NCBI GenBank assembly: GCA_018662225.1
Contig: JABJGO010000073.1
Location: 1 to 64,000, forward strand
Reading direction: 5' to 3'
Length of the DNA: 64,000 bases
Source of the DNA: Rhodospirillales bacterium
Lineage (GTDB): Bacteria; Pseudomonadota; Alphaproteobacteria; Rhodospirillales; Casp-alpha2
The notes under the pieces were generated by a model. That model did not search any database and was not told the origin of the DNA. It saw only the letters and a program-made list of their open reading frames with translations. A program made the position numbers and the translations under genes. Shown piece after piece: positions 50,015 to 62,409 of this stretch. Position 1 is the first letter of the stretch. Each line of letters begins with the position of its first letter.

Positions 50015-50123
50015 GGCGTAATCCTTTCGCGCGATCATGACTATATTGTCGATTATCTACATATCTCATTGATTGCCCGCGCGCCATAGGCCAAAAATAG
50101 TAATTGAAGAGGGAGTTTGCACC

Positions 50124-51110
50124 ATGTCCACCGTAACGTTGAAGCATATCAAACGCGCACGCGAGGTCATTAGAGATTCCGTGCGCCATACACCGCTGAT
50201 TCCATCGCCAAGCTTGAGCGAAATTGCGGGCGTCGATGTTCATTTGAAACTGGAAACCTTACAGGATATCGGCGCGTTCAAGATCAGAGGCGCCACCAAC
50301 AAACTGGCCAGCCTGAGTGATGAAGAAAAAACCCGCGGTGTTGTTGCGGTATCAACTGGCAATCATGGCCGGGGTGTGGCGGCGGCGGCTAAAAAGATGG
50401 GTATCCGCGCCATCATCTGTATGGGCAATCTGGTGCCTGAAAACAAACTGGCGGGTATCAGGGCTCTGGGTGCCGAAATCAGGATTGTTGGGAAAAGTCA
50501 GGACGATGCCGAGGTGGAAGCCCAGCGTCTGATCGATGAAGAGGGTATGATCAACGCCCATCCTTTTGATGATATGCACGTTGTATCGGGGCAGGGCACG
50601 ATCGGACTGGAACTGCTGGAAGACCTGCCCCATGTGAAGACGGTGATTGTGCCATTATCCGGTGGTGGCTTGGCGGGTGGCATTGCGCTGGCGTTGAAAG
50701 CATCCAGCCCAAACGTTCGTGTGGTGGCTGTTTCCATGGAAAAGGGTGCCGCCATGATCGAGAGCATCGCCGCCGGCAAGCCGGTACCTGTGGAAGAACT
50801 GCCCACACTGGCAGATTCGCTGGGCGGCGGCATCGGCCTTGAAAACCAGCATACCTTTGCGCTTTGTCGTGACTATATCGATGACCTGATTACGCTTTCC
50901 GAAGAACAGATCAGCGCCGCCATGGCGCACTTTTACTGGCAGGAACGCATCATCGTTGAAGGTGGCGGGTCTGTGGGGGCGGCCGCAATCCTGAACGGTC
51001 TGATTCCTGATCTGGAAGGCCCTGTGGCGATCGTGGTCAGTGGCCGCAATGTGGACATGGCCAAGTTGCACCAGATCATTGATGACAATCCCCCGGCGAG
51101 CCCGGGATAA
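50124..51110 (+). CDS. eutB: Threonine-dehydratase-like enzyme, EutB/BhcB type
   Basis: A 328-residue fold type II PLP enzyme. The PLP Lys is in DIGAFKIRGATNKL, followed by STGNHGRGVAAAAKKMG, VPLSGGGLAGGIALALKA (phosphate-binding) and IIVEGGGSVGAAAIL. The closest types I know are EutB, which removes water from hydroxyectoine-derived intermediates, and BhcB, beta-hydroxyaspartate dehydratase. Both make an imine that the following EutC/BhcD-type enzyme reduces, which the neighbour supports. GAGGGAG lies before the ATG at 50124; the frame from 50073 has none. Confidence 0.75.
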   Translation: MSTVTLKHIKRAREVIRDSVRHTPLIPSPSLSEIAGVDVHLKLETLQDIGAFKIRGATNKLASLSDEEKTRGVVAVSTGNHGRGVAAAAKKMGIRAIICMGNLVPENKLAGIRALGAEIRIVGKSQDDAEVEAQRLIDEEGMINAHPFDDMHVVSGQGTIGLELLEDLPHVKTVIVPLSGGGLAGGIALALKASSPNVRVVAVSMEKGAAMIESIAAGKPVPVEELPTLADSLGGGIGLENQHTFALCRDYIDDLITLSEEQISAAMAHFYWQERIIVEGGGSVGAAAILNGLIPDLEGPVAIVVSGRNVDMAKLHQIIDDNPPASPG

Positions 51111-51137
51111 AACTAAGGATAGAACGAAGGATAGCGC

Positions 51138-52130
51138 ATGACTGAAATCACCATTCTGCCCGAAAGCCAGCTTCGCCAATGTGTGCATCTGGATATGGAA
51201 GTCTTAGGTGCCATTGAAGATGTGTTCACGGCGCTGGCCGGTGGCAAGGTTATTATGCCGCCGATCCTGCGGCTGGATATCGAAGAGCATCACGGCGAGA
51301 TTGACGTGAAGACCGCCTATATTCCGGGCTTGGACAGTTTTGCGGTTAAAATGAGTCCCGGTTTTTTCAACAACCCAAAACTGGGACTGCCCAGCACCAA
51401 CGGCCTTATGACGTTGTTCAGCGCCCATACTGGTTTGGTTGAGGCCATGTTGCTGGATAATGGGTACCTGACCGATGTGCGCACTGCTGCTGCCGGTGCC
51501 ATTGCATCCAAATATTTGGCGAACCCGAACATTGATACGGTGGGTGTGATCGGTACCGGATCGCAGGCTCGTTATCAGGTCGAGGCCTTGAAGCTGGTTC
51601 GCGATTTCTCGAACGTTTTGGTCTGGGGTCGCGATGCGGGCAAGGCGGCGGCGTGCGCCGATGATATAGCTGAAAAACTGGATGTATCGGCGGGACCGTG
51701 CGCCAGCATCGAAGACGTGGTTGCGGCGTCGCAGGGGGTTATTACCTCGACGCCATCCAGTGAGCCGCTGATACAGTCCGACTGGCTGCACCCCGGCTTA
51801 CACGTTACCGCCATGGGATCGGACGCTGAACATAAACGTGAGCTGGACCCTGCAATCGTTGCGGCCTGTGATCTGTTTGTGTGCGATACGCGCGCCCAAA
51901 GCGCCAAACTGGGCGAGCTGCACCATGCTATTGATGCAGGCATTGTGGATACCGATGTTGCCGTCACTGAATTGGGGCAGGTCATCACGGGTGATGCACC
52001 AGGCCGCCAAAGCGCCGACGATATCACTGTGTGTGATCTGACCGGTACCGGCGCGCAGGATACGGCCATCGCCCGATTGGCGTTCCAGAAAGCACAAAGG
52101 ATGGGTCTCGGCACCCAGTTCGAGACTTAA
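51138..52130 (+). CDS. eutC: Ornithine cyclodeaminase family protein, EutC/BhcD type
   Basis: A 330-residue member of the ornithine cyclodeaminase/mu-crystallin family. It binds NAD(P) through VGVIGTGSQARYQVEALKLV, with the substrate side formed by the N-terminal half (PILRLDIEEHHGEIDVKTAYIPGL). Such enzymes either cyclise and deaminate amino acids or reduce imines; placed 27 bases behind the EutB-like gene it most likely reduces the imine formed there. AAGGATAGCGC precedes the ATG. Confidence 0.78.
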   Translation: MTEITILPESQLRQCVHLDMEVLGAIEDVFTALAGGKVIMPPILRLDIEEHHGEIDVKTAYIPGLDSFAVKMSPGFFNNPKLGLPSTNGLMTLFSAHTGLVEAMLLDNGYLTDVRTAAAGAIASKYLANPNIDTVGVIGTGSQARYQVEALKLVRDFSNVLVWGRDAGKAAACADDIAEKLDVSAGPCASIEDVVAASQGVITSTPSSEPLIQSDWLHPGLHVTAMGSDAEHKRELDPAIVAACDLFVCDTRAQSAKLGELHHAIDAGIVDTDVAVTELGQVITGDAPGRQSADDITVCDLTGTGAQDTAIARLAFQKAQRMGLGTQFET

Positions 52131-55280: not shown

Positions 55281-56879
55281 TTAATCCTCAATGGCAACGA
55301 AAGACAGCGCCTGATTAGCCGTTCGCATGGCATGGCGACGTTTTAACGGCGAGTGCAGAAAACGGTTGAGAGCGGCCAGCAACGTGGGCTGCCATGCGCC
55401 ACCGGGATTGTTATCAATTTCATCGCTGATGGCGGTCGTCGTTTTGATCAAATGCGCCGTAACGATGTATTCGAACTGGCCATGATCGAACAGGGAATCG
55501 AGGGTTTCGTTCAGGAACGCCGTAGGATCCGACACCAGCCAGTCCTCAAGGCAAATGGATGCATCTTGTGAATCACTGTTACGGCCAAAGAAACAGCACA
55601 TCTGCAACAAGGCCGACGGCCATAATTCAGGGTATTTCTGGGCCAGATGCCGGGCAGCGTTGGCGAAGGTGACCTCGTGCGTCACGCTCAGCCACGTGCG
55701 GTTATGGGCTATGGAATTCGTCGTAGCAGCCTGCACGTCCAGATCGAATTTAAGGACGCTGCGACCGTTCATCTCCAGCAACACGTCATAAAGCTCATCA
55801 GGCGATTGGGATGCCTTAGCCGCCAGTGTCATGGCCGCCTTTGCGCCAAGCCCACTGAAATCATCGGGCTGAACCACTTGATCCTTCGTCGTGTTCCAGT
55901 TCTCCAGGATTGCGGCGTATTCCCGGAACTCAGGAATCAGGTCCTCCCGCCACGATTTTACCAGCCCGCGTGTAAGCATGAGCAACAACGGCTCGATGAC
56001 ATCATCGCCCAAGTGGTCCAGCAGTTCACCGGTCTTCAGTACGTAAATAGCCCCATGCCCGAAATCCAGATAATGGGCGAGCGACGCGCGGGCGAAGCCT
56101 CGTTCCATATCCGCCCAGCCCATGCCGACATCCAGCGCGCCGCGAACGTGGGCGGTGGCGGTTCCTTCGTCTTCGTCCTCGATAGCCTGAACAAAATCAT
56201 CTTCGTTCCATGGTTTTGTTTCGGTGGAATAGGGGAACACGGGTTCACGCTGACTGTCCCAGGCGAAGTTCGCCACAATTTCATGCACGGGCATCAGGCG
56301 TGTGGCATCATCATGAGCGCGGGTGTCGCGCAGGCGTAACCAGTCAGCCGCCGCCATGGGGGCGTGGGTGGAGCCAATACCGAATTCAAATCGGTCGTGA
56401 GTCCATTTGATGGTTTCGCGCACCGCATCCAGCACATCGCCGCCAGCTTTGTCCATACGGGCAATTTCACGGGCCATGCGGTCATACTCGTGTCGGTCAA
56501 AGGAATCCCGCAGGTTGTTCAGGGCGTCGTCTATGCGGGCTTGCGCCGGGGCGTCGGCCACATCAATGCGGATCATGCCACCCTCAACACACGTGGGATA
56601 AACGCGTAGACGATCACCCCCATAGGCATTGTCGCCCGTCCGCAAATCAAACTTCCAGTTATGCCAGTTGCAGGTCAGCGTGCAGTCGCCCGACAGGGTA
56701 CCTTCCTTCAACGGATAGCCTTCGTGCGGGCAGCGATTGTTACAGGCATAAATTTCACCATCCCGATCGAATAGCGCGATCTGCTTTGATCCGACCTTGA
56801 TAACCTTGGCACCGGTTTCGCGCAGGGTGCTCAGTTCAATGGCGTCCTGCCAGTCTGTGTGCTGTGCTGAGTCAGGCAT
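55281..56879 (-). CDS. Rieske protein fused to a large helical domain, unknown
   Basis: A 532-residue protein. The N-terminal domain (about 10-108) is a Rieske ferredoxin: CPH at 50-52 (in ACNNRCPHEGYPL) and CNWH at 70-73 (in CNWHNWKFDLRTG) would bind a [2Fe-2S] cluster. The rest (about 115-532) is mostly helical and has no family I can name; recurring His, Asp and Glu appear in LAHYLDFGHGAIYV, HNRTWLSVTHEVTFANAARHL and YIVTAHLIKTTTAI, suggestive of a metal site. It is not a normal Rieske oxygenase alpha subunit (no H-x4-H-x-D facial triad is evident). Divergent from its regulator. AAGGATCGCC precedes the ATG. Confidence 0.7.
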   Translation of the reverse strand: MPDSAQHTDWQDAIELSTLRETGAKVIKVGSKQIALFDRDGEIYACNNRCPHEGYPLKEGTLSGDCTLTCNWHNWKFDLRTGDNAYGGDRLRVYPTCVEGGMIRIDVADAPAQARIDDALNNLRDSFDRHEYDRMAREIARMDKAGGDVLDAVRETIKWTHDRFEFGIGSTHAPMAAADWLRLRDTRAHDDATRLMPVHEIVANFAWDSQREPVFPYSTETKPWNEDDFVQAIEDEDEGTATAHVRGALDVGMGWADMERGFARASLAHYLDFGHGAIYVLKTGELLDHLGDDVIEPLLLMLTRGLVKSWREDLIPEFREYAAILENWNTTKDQVVQPDDFSGLGAKAAMTLAAKASQSPDELYDVLLEMNGRSVLKFDLDVQAATTNSIAHNRTWLSVTHEVTFANAARHLAQKYPELWPSALLQMCCFFGRNSDSQDASICLEDWLVSDPTAFLNETLDSLFDHGQFEYIVTAHLIKTTTAISDEIDNNPGGAWQPTLLAALNRFLHSPLKRRHAMRTANQALSFVAIED

Positions 56880-56897
56880 TTGGCGATCCTTTAATTG

Positions 56898-56962
56898 ATA
56901 TAAAGTTTTTCCTTTATATATTATTTATTGAATTAAACAAGAGTGTTCTTTATAAAAAGAAC
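56898..56962. promoter_or_regulatory. Two inverted repeats between the Rieske gene and its regulator
   Basis: ATATAAAG (56898-56905) pairs with CTTTATAT (56912-56919), and GTTCTT (56945-56950) pairs with AAGAAC (56957-56962), both perfectly. They flank the divergent AT-rich promoter region and the second lies just before the regulator start, as for autoregulation. Which of the genes each controls cannot be said. Confidence 0.55.
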
Positions 56963-57622
56963 ATGAATGATTCTACATCAATAAAGAAAAAGGCCAAAGG
57001 CAGCCGCGCGGTTATCGATTCATTGAAGATCGATGGCCCACAGACGGCGCAGGCATTGTCTGAGCGTTTAGGCGTAACGGCTATGGCTGTGCGCCAGCAT
57101 CTTTATGACATGGTGGACAAGGGGCTGGTCACCTTTGAAGAAAAGAAAGGCCGGGCCGGTCGTCCGTCCAAGATCTGGGCATTGACTGATGGGGCCAACA
57201 GCTTTTTCCCTGATGGCCATGCTGATCTGGCGGTGGGCCTGATCCATACAGTACGGGCGACATTTGGCGATGCGGGTATTGATCAGCTTATAGCTGTTCG
57301 TACCGGCACACAGCTAAAAGCCTATACCCGCGTGTTGGAACGTAGTGAAGGTATTGAGGCCAAACTGGATTCACTGGCCCAAATTCGAACCGGCGAAGGT
57401 TATATGGCGGACGTTCGGCAAGAGGATGATGGCGCGTATACTTTTATTGAACGGCACTGCCCCATCTGTTCGGCGGCGCAAGTTTGCACCGGGCTTTGTG
57501 CATCCGAGCTATCTGTGTTTCAGAAAACACTTGGCGATGATGTTGTTGTGGAGCGTACCGATCATATCCTGGCGGGTGCACAGCGGTGCGCCTATCGCGT
57601 CACGCCCCGCGATAACGGATAA
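56963..57622 (+). CDS. Winged-helix regulator with cysteine cluster (SufR-like)
   Basis: A 219-residue protein. The N-terminal winged helix (about 10-75) reads IDGPQTAQALSERLGVTAMAVRQHLYDMVDKGLVTFEEKKGRAGRPSKIWALT. The C-terminal part contains HCPICSAAQVCTGLCASELSVF and AGAQRCAYRV, four or five cysteines in the arrangement seen in SufR-type [4Fe-4S] regulators. It may therefore sense iron-sulfur or redox state. Divergent from the Rieske gene with palindromes between them. The start at 56963 is chosen because the longer frame from 56864 runs into the Rieske gene. Confidence 0.82.
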   Translation: MNDSTSIKKKAKGSRAVIDSLKIDGPQTAQALSERLGVTAMAVRQHLYDMVDKGLVTFEEKKGRAGRPSKIWALTDGANSFFPDGHADLAVGLIHTVRATFGDAGIDQLIAVRTGTQLKAYTRVLERSEGIEAKLDSLAQIRTGEGYMADVRQEDDGAYTFIERHCPICSAAQVCTGLCASELSVFQKTLGDDVVVERTDHILAGAQRCAYRVTPRDNG

Positions 57623-61058: not shown

Positions 61059-61865
61059 CTAATGCCCGACGGCGAAGTCGTTTCGCCCCGTCTTGTCTCC
61101 ACCCCTTAACTGAAACAGCGCGCGCTTGGAATAATCGTGCGTGGGGTTGTCGCTGTCGGCGCCTTTTGAATGATTGAAGAACGACGTGCCGGGCATGATG
61201 CGGAGTACGAAACCGGCGCGCCGGTCCGGTGTGGTATTGGCTCCTGATCCGTGGACGATGAACACGTCATGGATGGAAATTTGGCCCGCTTTGCGAATCA
61301 CATCTACGGCCTTGTCTTCGTCTACCCATTCATCATCGATTTCCTGAAACAGGGTCAGATCGTCCCGTTCGTTCCAGTGATGGGGGTATCCGCGGCGGTC
61401 CTGGTGCGATCCGGGCTGGTAACGCATGCAGCCGTTTTCGGCGGTGGCATCATCAATGGCGATCCACACTGTGATCGTGGCCATGGGCTCGATAGGGTAA
61501 TAGTCGGCGTCCTGATGCCATGGTGTGGCTTTACCCACCAACGGCGGCTTACCAAACAAGGTGGTGCCCCACAGGATCAGGTCTTCACCGGCGACTTGAG
61601 AAACCATATCCAGAATGTCGTCGTTGCGGGCGAGATCCATCCAGAACGGATCACCCTTTACACCCTGCGCGCCTGTTTTTTGCAGGTGTGGGCCCAACAT
61701 GAAATTAGGGCTGACGCCCGGAGTGTCTGAATTTTCGGCCACGATGCGACCGTAAGCCTCGCGCATCTGGTTCAATAAATCATCCGGCATCTGGTAATCC
61801 GGCATGATAAAGCCGTCGCGATGATAGGCTTTGATTTGTTGGTTCGATAACGTGGCTGCGCTCAT
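61059..61865 (-). CDS. Phytanoyl-CoA dioxygenase family protein
   Basis: A 268-residue Fe(II)/2-oxoglutarate dioxygenase. The facial triad is visible as [12 protein letters not shown] (HxD) and the later [21 protein letters not shown] (distal His and Arg). The N-terminal [17 protein letters not shown] is typical of the family. Substrate unknown. GGAG 6 bases upstream favours the ATG at 61865; ATG 61868 is adjacent. The longer frame from 61958 lies within the divergent queF leader. A second PhyH protein is at 20011-20841. Confidence 0.85.
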
Positions 61866-61947
61866 CATTCTCTCCTGTTCCCGGTCAATGAATAACACAC
61901 CCACATTAAAAGTGGACCCAAAAGTTATGGTGGGGTATGCATGGGCC

Positions 61948-62409
61948 ATGAACGACACGATTTATGATAATCTGAGCCAATTGGGCGGTGGGGCTGAGAT
62001 GCCCGCATCACCTGACGAGGCCGTGCTGGAAACCGTACCGAACCCGCAGGACGTAGGTTATCTGGTCCGGTTTACCTGCCCTGAATTCACGTCTGTGTGC
62101 CCGGTGACGGGCCAGCCGGACTTCGCCCATTTGATGATCGATTATGTGCCAGACAACCTGATCGTGGAAAGCAAATCGCTGAAGCTGTATCTGAGCAGCT
62201 TCCGAAATCATGCGGCATTTCACGAAGATTGTACGGTGGGTATTGCCAGGCGACTGGTGGATACCATGTCACCCAAATGGCTGCGCATTGGTGGATACTG
62301 GTATCCGCGCGGGGGTATTCCCATTGATGTGTTCTATCAAACCGGCGAGCCACCCGCAGAGGTATGGATCCCCGAACAGGGTGTGCCACCCTATCGTGGT
62401 CGCGGCTAG
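61948..62409 (+). CDS. queF: NADPH-dependent 7-cyano-7-deazaguanine reductase QueF
   Basis: Reduces preQ0 to preQ1. The 153-residue, unimodular form has the catalytic Cys in [17 protein letters not shown] (near 49) and the QueF signature [20 protein letters not shown]. This is the usual short form. The frame opens at 61831, but the ATG at 61948 (MNDTIYDN) fits the family. With queA and tgt it makes a queuosine group, though the plus-strand queF is separated from tgt by the PhyH gene. Confidence 0.95.

Follow-up and report, generated by a model that had tools for sequence, protein, structure and literature searches.

What does a Rieske [2Fe-2S] domain accomplish when it is fused to some 420 helical residues of no recognized family, and when the gene for the fusion lies back to back with that of a regulator containing its own cluster of cysteines? 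The question is raised by positions 55,281 to 57,622 of a 64,000-nucleotide stretch of DNA (hereafter, the window; positions 1 to 64,000 of the forward strand of contig JABJGO010000073.1) from a Rhodospirillales bacterium (GenBank assembly GCA_018662225.1, which consists of 103 contigs and is 95.7% complete). The answer that we consider probable is a Rieske-wired mononuclear iron oxygenase with a catalytic domain of the questin-oxidase fold, controlled by a divergently encoded, Fe-S-sensing repressor of the SufR/ArnR type. The architecture of the protein, its fold, the invariant set of presumed ligands, the pairing of the two genes and their operator, all obtained computationally, carry this reading.

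The fusion gene and its N-terminal part comprise the following features:

55281..56879 (minus strand): Rieske/questin-oxidase-fold fusion protein, an open reading frame (ORF) of 532 amino acids (aa), defined by homologue alignment and an AlphaFold2 model
56559..56852 (minus strand): Rieske [2Fe-2S] domain, residues 10-107, defined by the Pfam match, invariant ligands and Foldseek matches to Rieske ferredoxins
56661-56732 (minus strand): Rieske ligand motif C50-x-H52-x17-C70-x2-H73, with C50, H52, C70 and H73 present in 90 of 90 aligned rows

To judge from the alignment, this ORF is a genuine gene because 90 homologous sequences align with it and show invariant columns along the whole fusion protein (five of the 90 are duplicates, and the truncated homologue at locus L076 was not aligned). 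The Rieske domain was identified by Pfam scan (PF00355 at residues 10-83, E = 9.3e-18; PF13806 at residues 9-105); the best scorers against this part are soluble ferredoxins, and the structural comparison with Foldseek is likewise ferredoxin-like. A first-pass annotation made from the DNA alone had described a Rieske domain followed by a helical C-terminus of about 420 residues and had held that the protein is not a standard ring-hydroxylating oxygenase. Both statements stand: the domain and the helical part are seen in the ORF and its model, no ring-hydroxylating catalytic-domain family is found among the Pfam matches of the 532-aa protein at E ≤ 1, and the C-terminal model has a different fold.

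The identity of the C-terminal domain emerges from structure comparison:

55284..56552 (minus strand): C-terminal helical domain, residues 110-532, of the questin-oxidase (BTG13/AflY/PaD) fold, defined by the model and VIA-align

The C-terminal portion of about 420 residues produced no Pfam or NCBIfam match at E ≤ 1, and PF14027, the questin oxidase family, is absent for the window protein at the same threshold. Among 78 relatives searched against Pfam at E ≤ 10, PF14027 was not among the matches listed (25 of the 29 families, the other four having at most one member each); besides the Rieske families, these were scattered weak ones in few members, the commonest in 15 of the 78. A profile of the 78 relatives found zero sequence matches in the PDB at E ≤ 10. 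AlphaFold2 modelled the whole protein with a predicted local distance difference test score (pLDDT) of 93.7 and a predicted template modelling score (pTM) of 0.91, and residues 110-532 alone with a pLDDT of 95.4 and a pTM of 0.93. The full-length model retrieved Rieske proteins only among the 50 Foldseek matches listed, and the library of viral structures gave no match at E ≤ 0.001. For the C-terminal model, Foldseek placed PaD hydroquinone dioxygenase at ranks 1 and 2 (probability 0.99 and 0.97, E = 0.15 and 0.26), and the first five rows of the VIA-align 2 comparison, in which 995 chains were aligned, are all entries of the questin-oxidase family, with 329-334 residues aligned at 9-11% identity:

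BTG13 (7y3w): Z 17.8, 330 residues aligned, 4.3 Å
7y3y (questin-oxidase family): Z 17.8
AflY (8yxs): Z 17.3
PaD (8z4r): Z 15.2
PaD (8z4q): Z 15.1

The next row is a local helical match with Z 12.5 over 98 residues. According to the tool's own note, mostly helical models often score Z of about 13-14 without a clear relative, and a Z of 15-18 over about 330 residues, reached by one family only, appears to lie above this helical background, not hugely so. On the predicted model, then, the C-terminal domain is of the questin-oxidase fold, as the first-pass annotation had guessed. An identity with the C-terminal helical domain of MgsA/RarA-type ATPases was considered and rejected because the corresponding local matches (85-103 residues, Z about 10-12) cover about one quarter of the domain. 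Residues 222-319 (model positions 113-210) superpose on this MgsA/RarA-type helical domain over about 98 residues with Z of about 12, and a cyanobacterial relative has an MgsA_C Pfam match below the cut-off (E = 0.066).

The invariant His and Lys residues of the C-terminal domain delineate a predicted metal site:

56364..56366 (minus strand): H172, predicted iron ligand 1, conserved without exception in 90, 78 and 89 rows, paired with PF14027 H48 by motif
56055..56057 (minus strand): H275, predicted iron ligand 2, invariant and retained by 6 of 6 distant proteins, aligned with PF14027 H138
55668..55679 (minus strand): H401-x-x-T404, predicted iron ligand 3 and active-site Thr, invariant, aligned with PF14027 H266 and T269
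55443..55454 (minus strand): H476-x-x-K479, predicted iron ligand 4 and a (carboxylated?) Lys, invariant, aligned with PF14027 H334 and K337

In the 78 relatives, H172, H275, H401, H476 and K479 (63, 166, 292, 367 and 370 in domain numbering) are the only His and Lys of this domain that never vary, and none of these five presumed ligands changes in any of the 89 closer proteins. Five PF14027 proteins from other Alphaproteobacteria have H48, H138, H266, H334 and K337 as their invariant His and Lys, a set that did not change when six more were added (n = 11; L105 and L106 score below the Pfam cut-off, whereas L107, a Sel1/TPR protein, L108, which is the gene of L103, and the partial L110 were left out). 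Thus, the two sets agree in composition and order (four His, one Lys), the third residue belonging to an HxxT motif and the fourth to an HxxK motif, and the alignment of PaD shows both motifs as well. Profile comparison with hhalign of 95 family sequences against the 11 PF14027 proteins (E = 4.5e-4, probability 33%, 251 columns) pairs H275, H401, T404, H476 and K479 with H138, H266, T269, H334 and K337, respectively; H172 falls outside this alignment and was matched to H48 by motif alone (THAPMAAADWL vs NHAPMAAEAL). Without the distant members the E-value was 0.0018, and with an earlier pair of alignments 0.0095. The repeated His residues that had been considered from the beginning as a possible metal site are therefore likely to form one, in so far as sequence conservation can indicate, with the invariant four His and one Lys found also in the PF14027 proteins. 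In BTG13, the iron is reportedly coordinated by four His together with a carboxylated Lys, and by analogy K479 is probably carboxylated as well. BTG13 itself is reportedly an atypical nonheme iron dioxygenase, to go by the title of a 2024 paper in ACS Catal.

On the opposite strand, the regulator gene presents two features:

56963..57622 (plus strand): SufR/ArnR-like winged-helix regulator, 219 aa (TIGR02702, E = 2.9e-29, 102.3 bits vs a cut-off of 178.8)
57458..57589 (plus strand): Cys cluster C166-x2-C169-x5-C175-x3-C179-x29-C209, with all five Cys in 44 of the 44 rows kept (41 distinct)

The closest family of the regulator is SufR (TIGR02702), the curated cut-off of which is not reached. 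The window's own gene accounts for two of the 44 rows and duplicates for another two, hence the 41 distinct ones; five ORFs outside 190-280 aa were left out, namely L030, L080 and L032, which are antisense run-on ORFs and yet contain the Cys motif, and L042 and L070, which are cut by contig ends. Comparison of the homologues makes ATG 56963 the more likely start over GTG 56864 because 41 of the 44 rows are gapped over the extra stretch between the two (two of the other three are the window's gene). The cluster ligands are given as C203, C216 and C244 for Rv1460 (PMC6034842) and as C179, C193 and C223 for ArnR, the DNA binding of which is lost with nitric oxide (NO) (PMC12343034). C166, C179 and C209 (C166-x12-C179-x29-C209) fit the ligand spacing of both proteins. 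The iron-sulfur-type Cys cluster claimed for the regulator is thus borne out in the form of a SufR/ArnR-like triad within five invariant Cys, and Fe-S sensing is plausible, with better support than at first reading. The genome carries one match to the regulator (contig C39), with sufB on a different contig (C27).

The regulator appears to act through a site that recurs upstream of the enzyme gene in other genomes, the palindromic motif TTT(C/A)TAAAG-N6-CTTTA(G/T)AAA. In the window, the intergenic region contains:

56897..56920 (no strand): operator copy nearer the Rieske gene, core ATATAAAG-N6-CTTTATAT, score 15/18, exact core single in the genome
56933..56956 (no strand): operator copy nearer the regulator gene, score 15/18, 36 base pairs (bp) from the first copy
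56895..56922 (plus strand): promoter-like site TTGATA-16-TATATT for the regulator, a consensus match only

Sites were scored over 18 positions, taking the best one in the 300 bases upstream with a threshold of 13 and excluding L076. A best site of at least 13 was found in 45 of the 46 loci with a regulator, the window included (the exception, L047, has a non-adjacent regulator), and a second site of at least 13, located 36-53 bases from the first, in 40 of the 46; among the loci without a regulator, 4 of 39 have such a site. Dinucleotide shuffles reached 13 in 77 of 2300 cases for the regulator group and in 20 of 1950 for the group without, and reached 15 in none. The four positives lacking a regulator are L088, which ends just upstream and could miss its regulator merely through the contig end, L055 and L062, which show a related palindrome, and the weak L021. 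In L055 and L062, this palindrome, AGAAAG-N6-CTTTCT, lies within the 300 bases upstream, with no SufR-like regulator in the stretch examined, and possibly serves another regulator. For the exact core WTAAAG-N6-CTTTAW, the genome has a single site, the Rieske-regulator intergenic region, and degenerate sites elsewhere were possibly missed because the second window copy itself misfits the exact core. Three promoter-like sites were found in a 251-base stretch, vs a mean of 0.4 in shuffles; the first operator copy overlaps the promoter-like site of the regulator, which would suit repression. The first-pass annotation had reported two perfect inverted repeats between the genes. Both exist, with a length of 8 bp (arms 56898-56905/56912-56919 and 56944-56951/56956-56963), and the first forms the core of the operator shared across genera, whereas the second is out of register and merely overlaps the copy at 56933-56956.

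The pairing of the two genes was examined at 89 homologous loci, the window excluded. The regulator is divergent and adjacent in 44 of these (including L030 and L080, where its ORF runs on antisense through the enzyme gene), present within 3 kb in three more (L016, L031 and L047), and lacking from the stretch examined in 38; four loci are too short upstream. After removal of the five duplicate loci, the respective counts are 42, 3, 35 and 4 of 84. The expected conservation of the pair is therefore real for the adjacent loci and their common operator and does not extend to the 38. The regulator is distributed by clade: when its presence (46 rows) is mapped on a tree of 95 proteins, 11 changes suffice, compared to 31.8 for shuffled labels. 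Among 199 genomes of the order, a strong regulator match (E below 1e-60) was detected in seven, four from one genus and two from another, and each of the seven also belongs to the 11 genomes that carry the Rieske gene, the two genes lying at neighbouring coordinates in every case; one more genome gave a weak match (E = 6.8e-4, residues 5-74). The regulator thus looks dedicated to the Rieske gene, which itself can exist without the regulator, given that seven of seven regulator genomes have the adjoining Rieske gene and 11 carry the latter.

The two-part architecture reaches well beyond this order. A scan of one genome per species yielded 229 stretches encoding a relative, and the best 80 of the 229, which were kept, come mostly from Alphaproteobacteria or their groups by title, with some from Gammaproteobacteria. 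With the C-terminal part as the sole query, matches were obtained in 11 of 199 genomes of the order and in 5 of 398 of the phylum (own genome counted in both), and the Rieske motif is present in 14 of the 14 non-own loci retrieved in these searches. A tblastn search of plasmids with the fusion protein retrieved 152 records, none covering 80% of the query; of the 20 matches listed, ten haloarchaeal or cyanobacterial records cover 54-78% at 23-30% identity, and the other ten (Priestia, Metabacillus, nitrite-reductase subunits and others) match the Rieske part and its edge only. Six distant plasmid-borne Rieske proteins of 583-601 aa were read, from haloarchaea (L099, L119, L121), cyanobacteria (L100, L120) and Priestia (L101). 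They share the two-part architecture, and the alignment of their C-termini with those of the family, across 374 columns, gives E = 5.6e-14. They keep H275, H401 and H476, but K479 is replaced by Gln in all six and the H172 column holds Tyr in five of them, so that their metal site is possibly altered. No SufR-like gene is annotated next to these six genes, the gene table being incomplete. An AsnC family regulator gene precedes two of the three haloarchaeal fusions, and an annotated short-chain dehydrogenase or short-chain dehydrogenase/reductase (SDR) family oxidoreductase lies within the stretch read in L100, L101 and L120.

In the mechanism that we infer, which extends to the iron, the flow of electrons, the substrate, and the sign and signal of the regulation, the N-terminal Rieske module would be the electron carrier and the C-terminal questin-oxidase-fold module the catalyst, within one chain. 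A single nonheme iron would be bound through H172, H275, H401, H476 and K479; the Rieske cluster would receive electrons from a reductase encoded elsewhere and pass them either to this iron or to a quinone bound next to it as substrate; O2 would be activated, and a (hydro)quinone-like substrate would be oxidized or its ring opened. The SufR/ArnR-like protein would bind the two intergenic operators and repress both genes, releasing the DNA upon damage or loss of its own Fe-S cluster. The substrate is possibly an aromatic compound or a quinol. In the fungal systems, a separate NADPH reductase produces the hydroquinone, which the dioxygenase then cleaves with O2 (PMC9890505); the fused Rieske domain could replace such a reductase or feed the iron directly.

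The same fungal order of a reductase followed by a hydroquinone dioxygenase (PMC9890505) favours a variant in which no electrons reach the iron: the enzyme would be a quinol dioxygenase, with the Rieske domain only reducing quinone to hydroquinone, and would remove redox-cycling, Fe-S-damaging quinones, the damage being sensed by the regulator. The fold match to PaD, titled a hydroquinone dioxygenase, and the single exact operator core in the genome, as fits a dedicated detoxification gene, point the same way. However, Rieske domains are not known to reduce quinones in this manner, and no quinone-related gene was recognized among the neighbours, most of which are unannotated; we regard this variant as possible but rather unlikely. 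The resemblance of the regulator to ArnR, which shows the same pattern of three Cys and no longer binds DNA in the presence of NO (PMC12343034), could instead indicate an enzyme of NO or Fe-S stress, in which case NO would strip the cluster of the regulator and the Rieske/iron protein would handle NO or a damaged metabolite. Some carriers are named for denitrification (Nisaea denitrificans, Denitrobaculum), but the link consists of names only: two Nisaea loci (L053, L061) are without the regulator, and no nitrogen-oxide gene was recognized among the mostly unannotated neighbours, which leaves this explanation improbable.

The loss of K479 and, mostly, of H172 in the distant subfamily, together with the high scores of soluble ferredoxins against the Rieske part, would suit a helical domain that is a non-catalytic scaffold or sensor, its fold kept without the chemistry and the Rieske domain acting as an ordinary ferredoxin for partners elsewhere. 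A scaffold would have no need for five presumed ligands that do not vary in the closer proteins, and we consider it quite improbable. The diiron oxidase suggested by the first-pass annotation can appeal to the many conserved acidic residues and His in the relatives, but the best fold matches among the 995 chains aligned in VIA-align, which argue against a ferritin-like four-helix fold, and the invariant His/Lys set are those of the questin oxidases, which are mononuclear nonheme iron enzymes, so that a diiron site is not supported and appears very improbable indeed.

Several observations weigh against the Rieske-wired iron oxygenase as well. The Foldseek E-value for PaD is merely 0.15, and the C-terminus has no Pfam match. 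The sequence link to PF14027 is weak when taken alone, with hhalign probabilities of 4.3%, 15% and 33%, and the distant subfamily on its own gives E = 0.25 and a probability of 0.2%; the substitutions at K479 and H172 in the six distant proteins belong here too. Three of the 11 PF14027 proteins were chosen from the loci by the HxIK pattern (the first five were not), and these three provide no independent test of H334 and K337 because that pattern picked them. The fungal questin oxidases are described as cofactor-free in the cleavage step (PMC9890505), and the fungal analogy accordingly does not predict a Rieske partner. Next door, no recurring dedicated electron donor was recognized (the neighbours were clustered, and few are annotated). 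On the side of regulation, the operator consensus was read by eye from the very loci that were then scored, and there are the 38 of 89 loci without a regulator.

Clustering of 585 neighbouring ORFs of 91 loci produced a sole common cluster, that of the regulator. Short-chain dehydrogenases form a cluster represented in 13 of the 91 loci in mixed places, with six members confirmed by Pfam; in L010-L013 the gene is the next one downstream, on the opposite strand, and there are nine other loci. As a partner of the fusion protein this dehydrogenase is too scattered, although the fungal systems do use a separate reductase, and its role as the reductase is possible but unproven. Immediately downstream of the Rieske gene, on the same strand, lies an arginase/agmatinase-family gene (PF00491; 54233-55198, minus strand). 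Of the loci searched, that of the closest homologue (L014) is the only one with a counterpart, 91% identical and likewise downstream, on which account the arginase gene is probably not part of the Rieske system. Farther away, the window contains ectoine-utilization-like genes at 50073-52130 (plus strand) with an EutC-like cyclodeaminase (TIGR02992, 463.2 bits vs a cut-off of 471.65) that is preceded by a threonine-dehydratase-like ORF, recognized by eye, and is followed by a CocE/NonD hydrolase, and a PhyH-family dioxygenase at 61059-61958 (minus strand) whose similarity to chlorinating enzymes and to ectoine hydroxylase stays below the cut-offs.

How does this system compare to known ones? 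With the questin oxidase family (PF14027; BTG13, AflY, PaD), the window protein shares the fold (Z 15-18), the four His and one Lys, and the HxxT and HxxK motifs, but unlike these enzymes, it has no PF14027 match, is fused to a Rieske domain, and is often encoded beside an Fe-S-type regulator of its own. With the alpha subunits of Rieske nonheme iron oxygenases, it shares a single-chain layout in which the Rieske domain precedes a presumed mononuclear iron domain; its second domain, in contrast, is all-helical, of another fold, and has four His and a Lys in place of the two His and one Asp of those enzymes. As far as is known, Rieske oxygenases have one catalytic fold and a two-His-one-Asp iron site throughout. 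The regulator has the N-terminal winged helix and the Cys triad in common with the SufR and ArnR [4Fe-4S] repressors and differs from SufR in its score below the cut-off, in two extra invariant Cys (C169 and C175), in the location of sufB on another contig, and in its pairing with one enzyme gene. Because there is neither a Pfam questin oxidase match nor a Rieske-oxygenase catalytic domain, and because of the SufR score and location, the two proteins are filed as members of none of these families; each may work like the family named.

A literature search, with most subscription journals outside its reach, found no publication on the combination of a Rieske domain with a questin oxidase domain or SufR. 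We give about an even chance to the broader proposition that these proteins constitute a second, independently built class of Rieske oxygenases, in which a Rieske cluster would supply electrons to a mononuclear iron, coordinated by four His plus a modified Lys on the questin-oxidase fold; the class would span Alpha- and Gammaproteobacteria, would include a divergent branch among haloarchaea, cyanobacteria and Bacilli, and would often be governed by a one-target, Fe-S-sensing repressor. If this is correct, Rieske electron delivery to iron would have arisen twice, on unrelated folds, and proteins recorded merely as 'Rieske (2Fe-2S) protein' would gain a testable function. The dedicated operator would offer a clean route to the inducing signal and, hence, to the substrate, and the chemistry of questin oxidases, known from fungal natural products, would extend to marine bacteria and perhaps to archaea.

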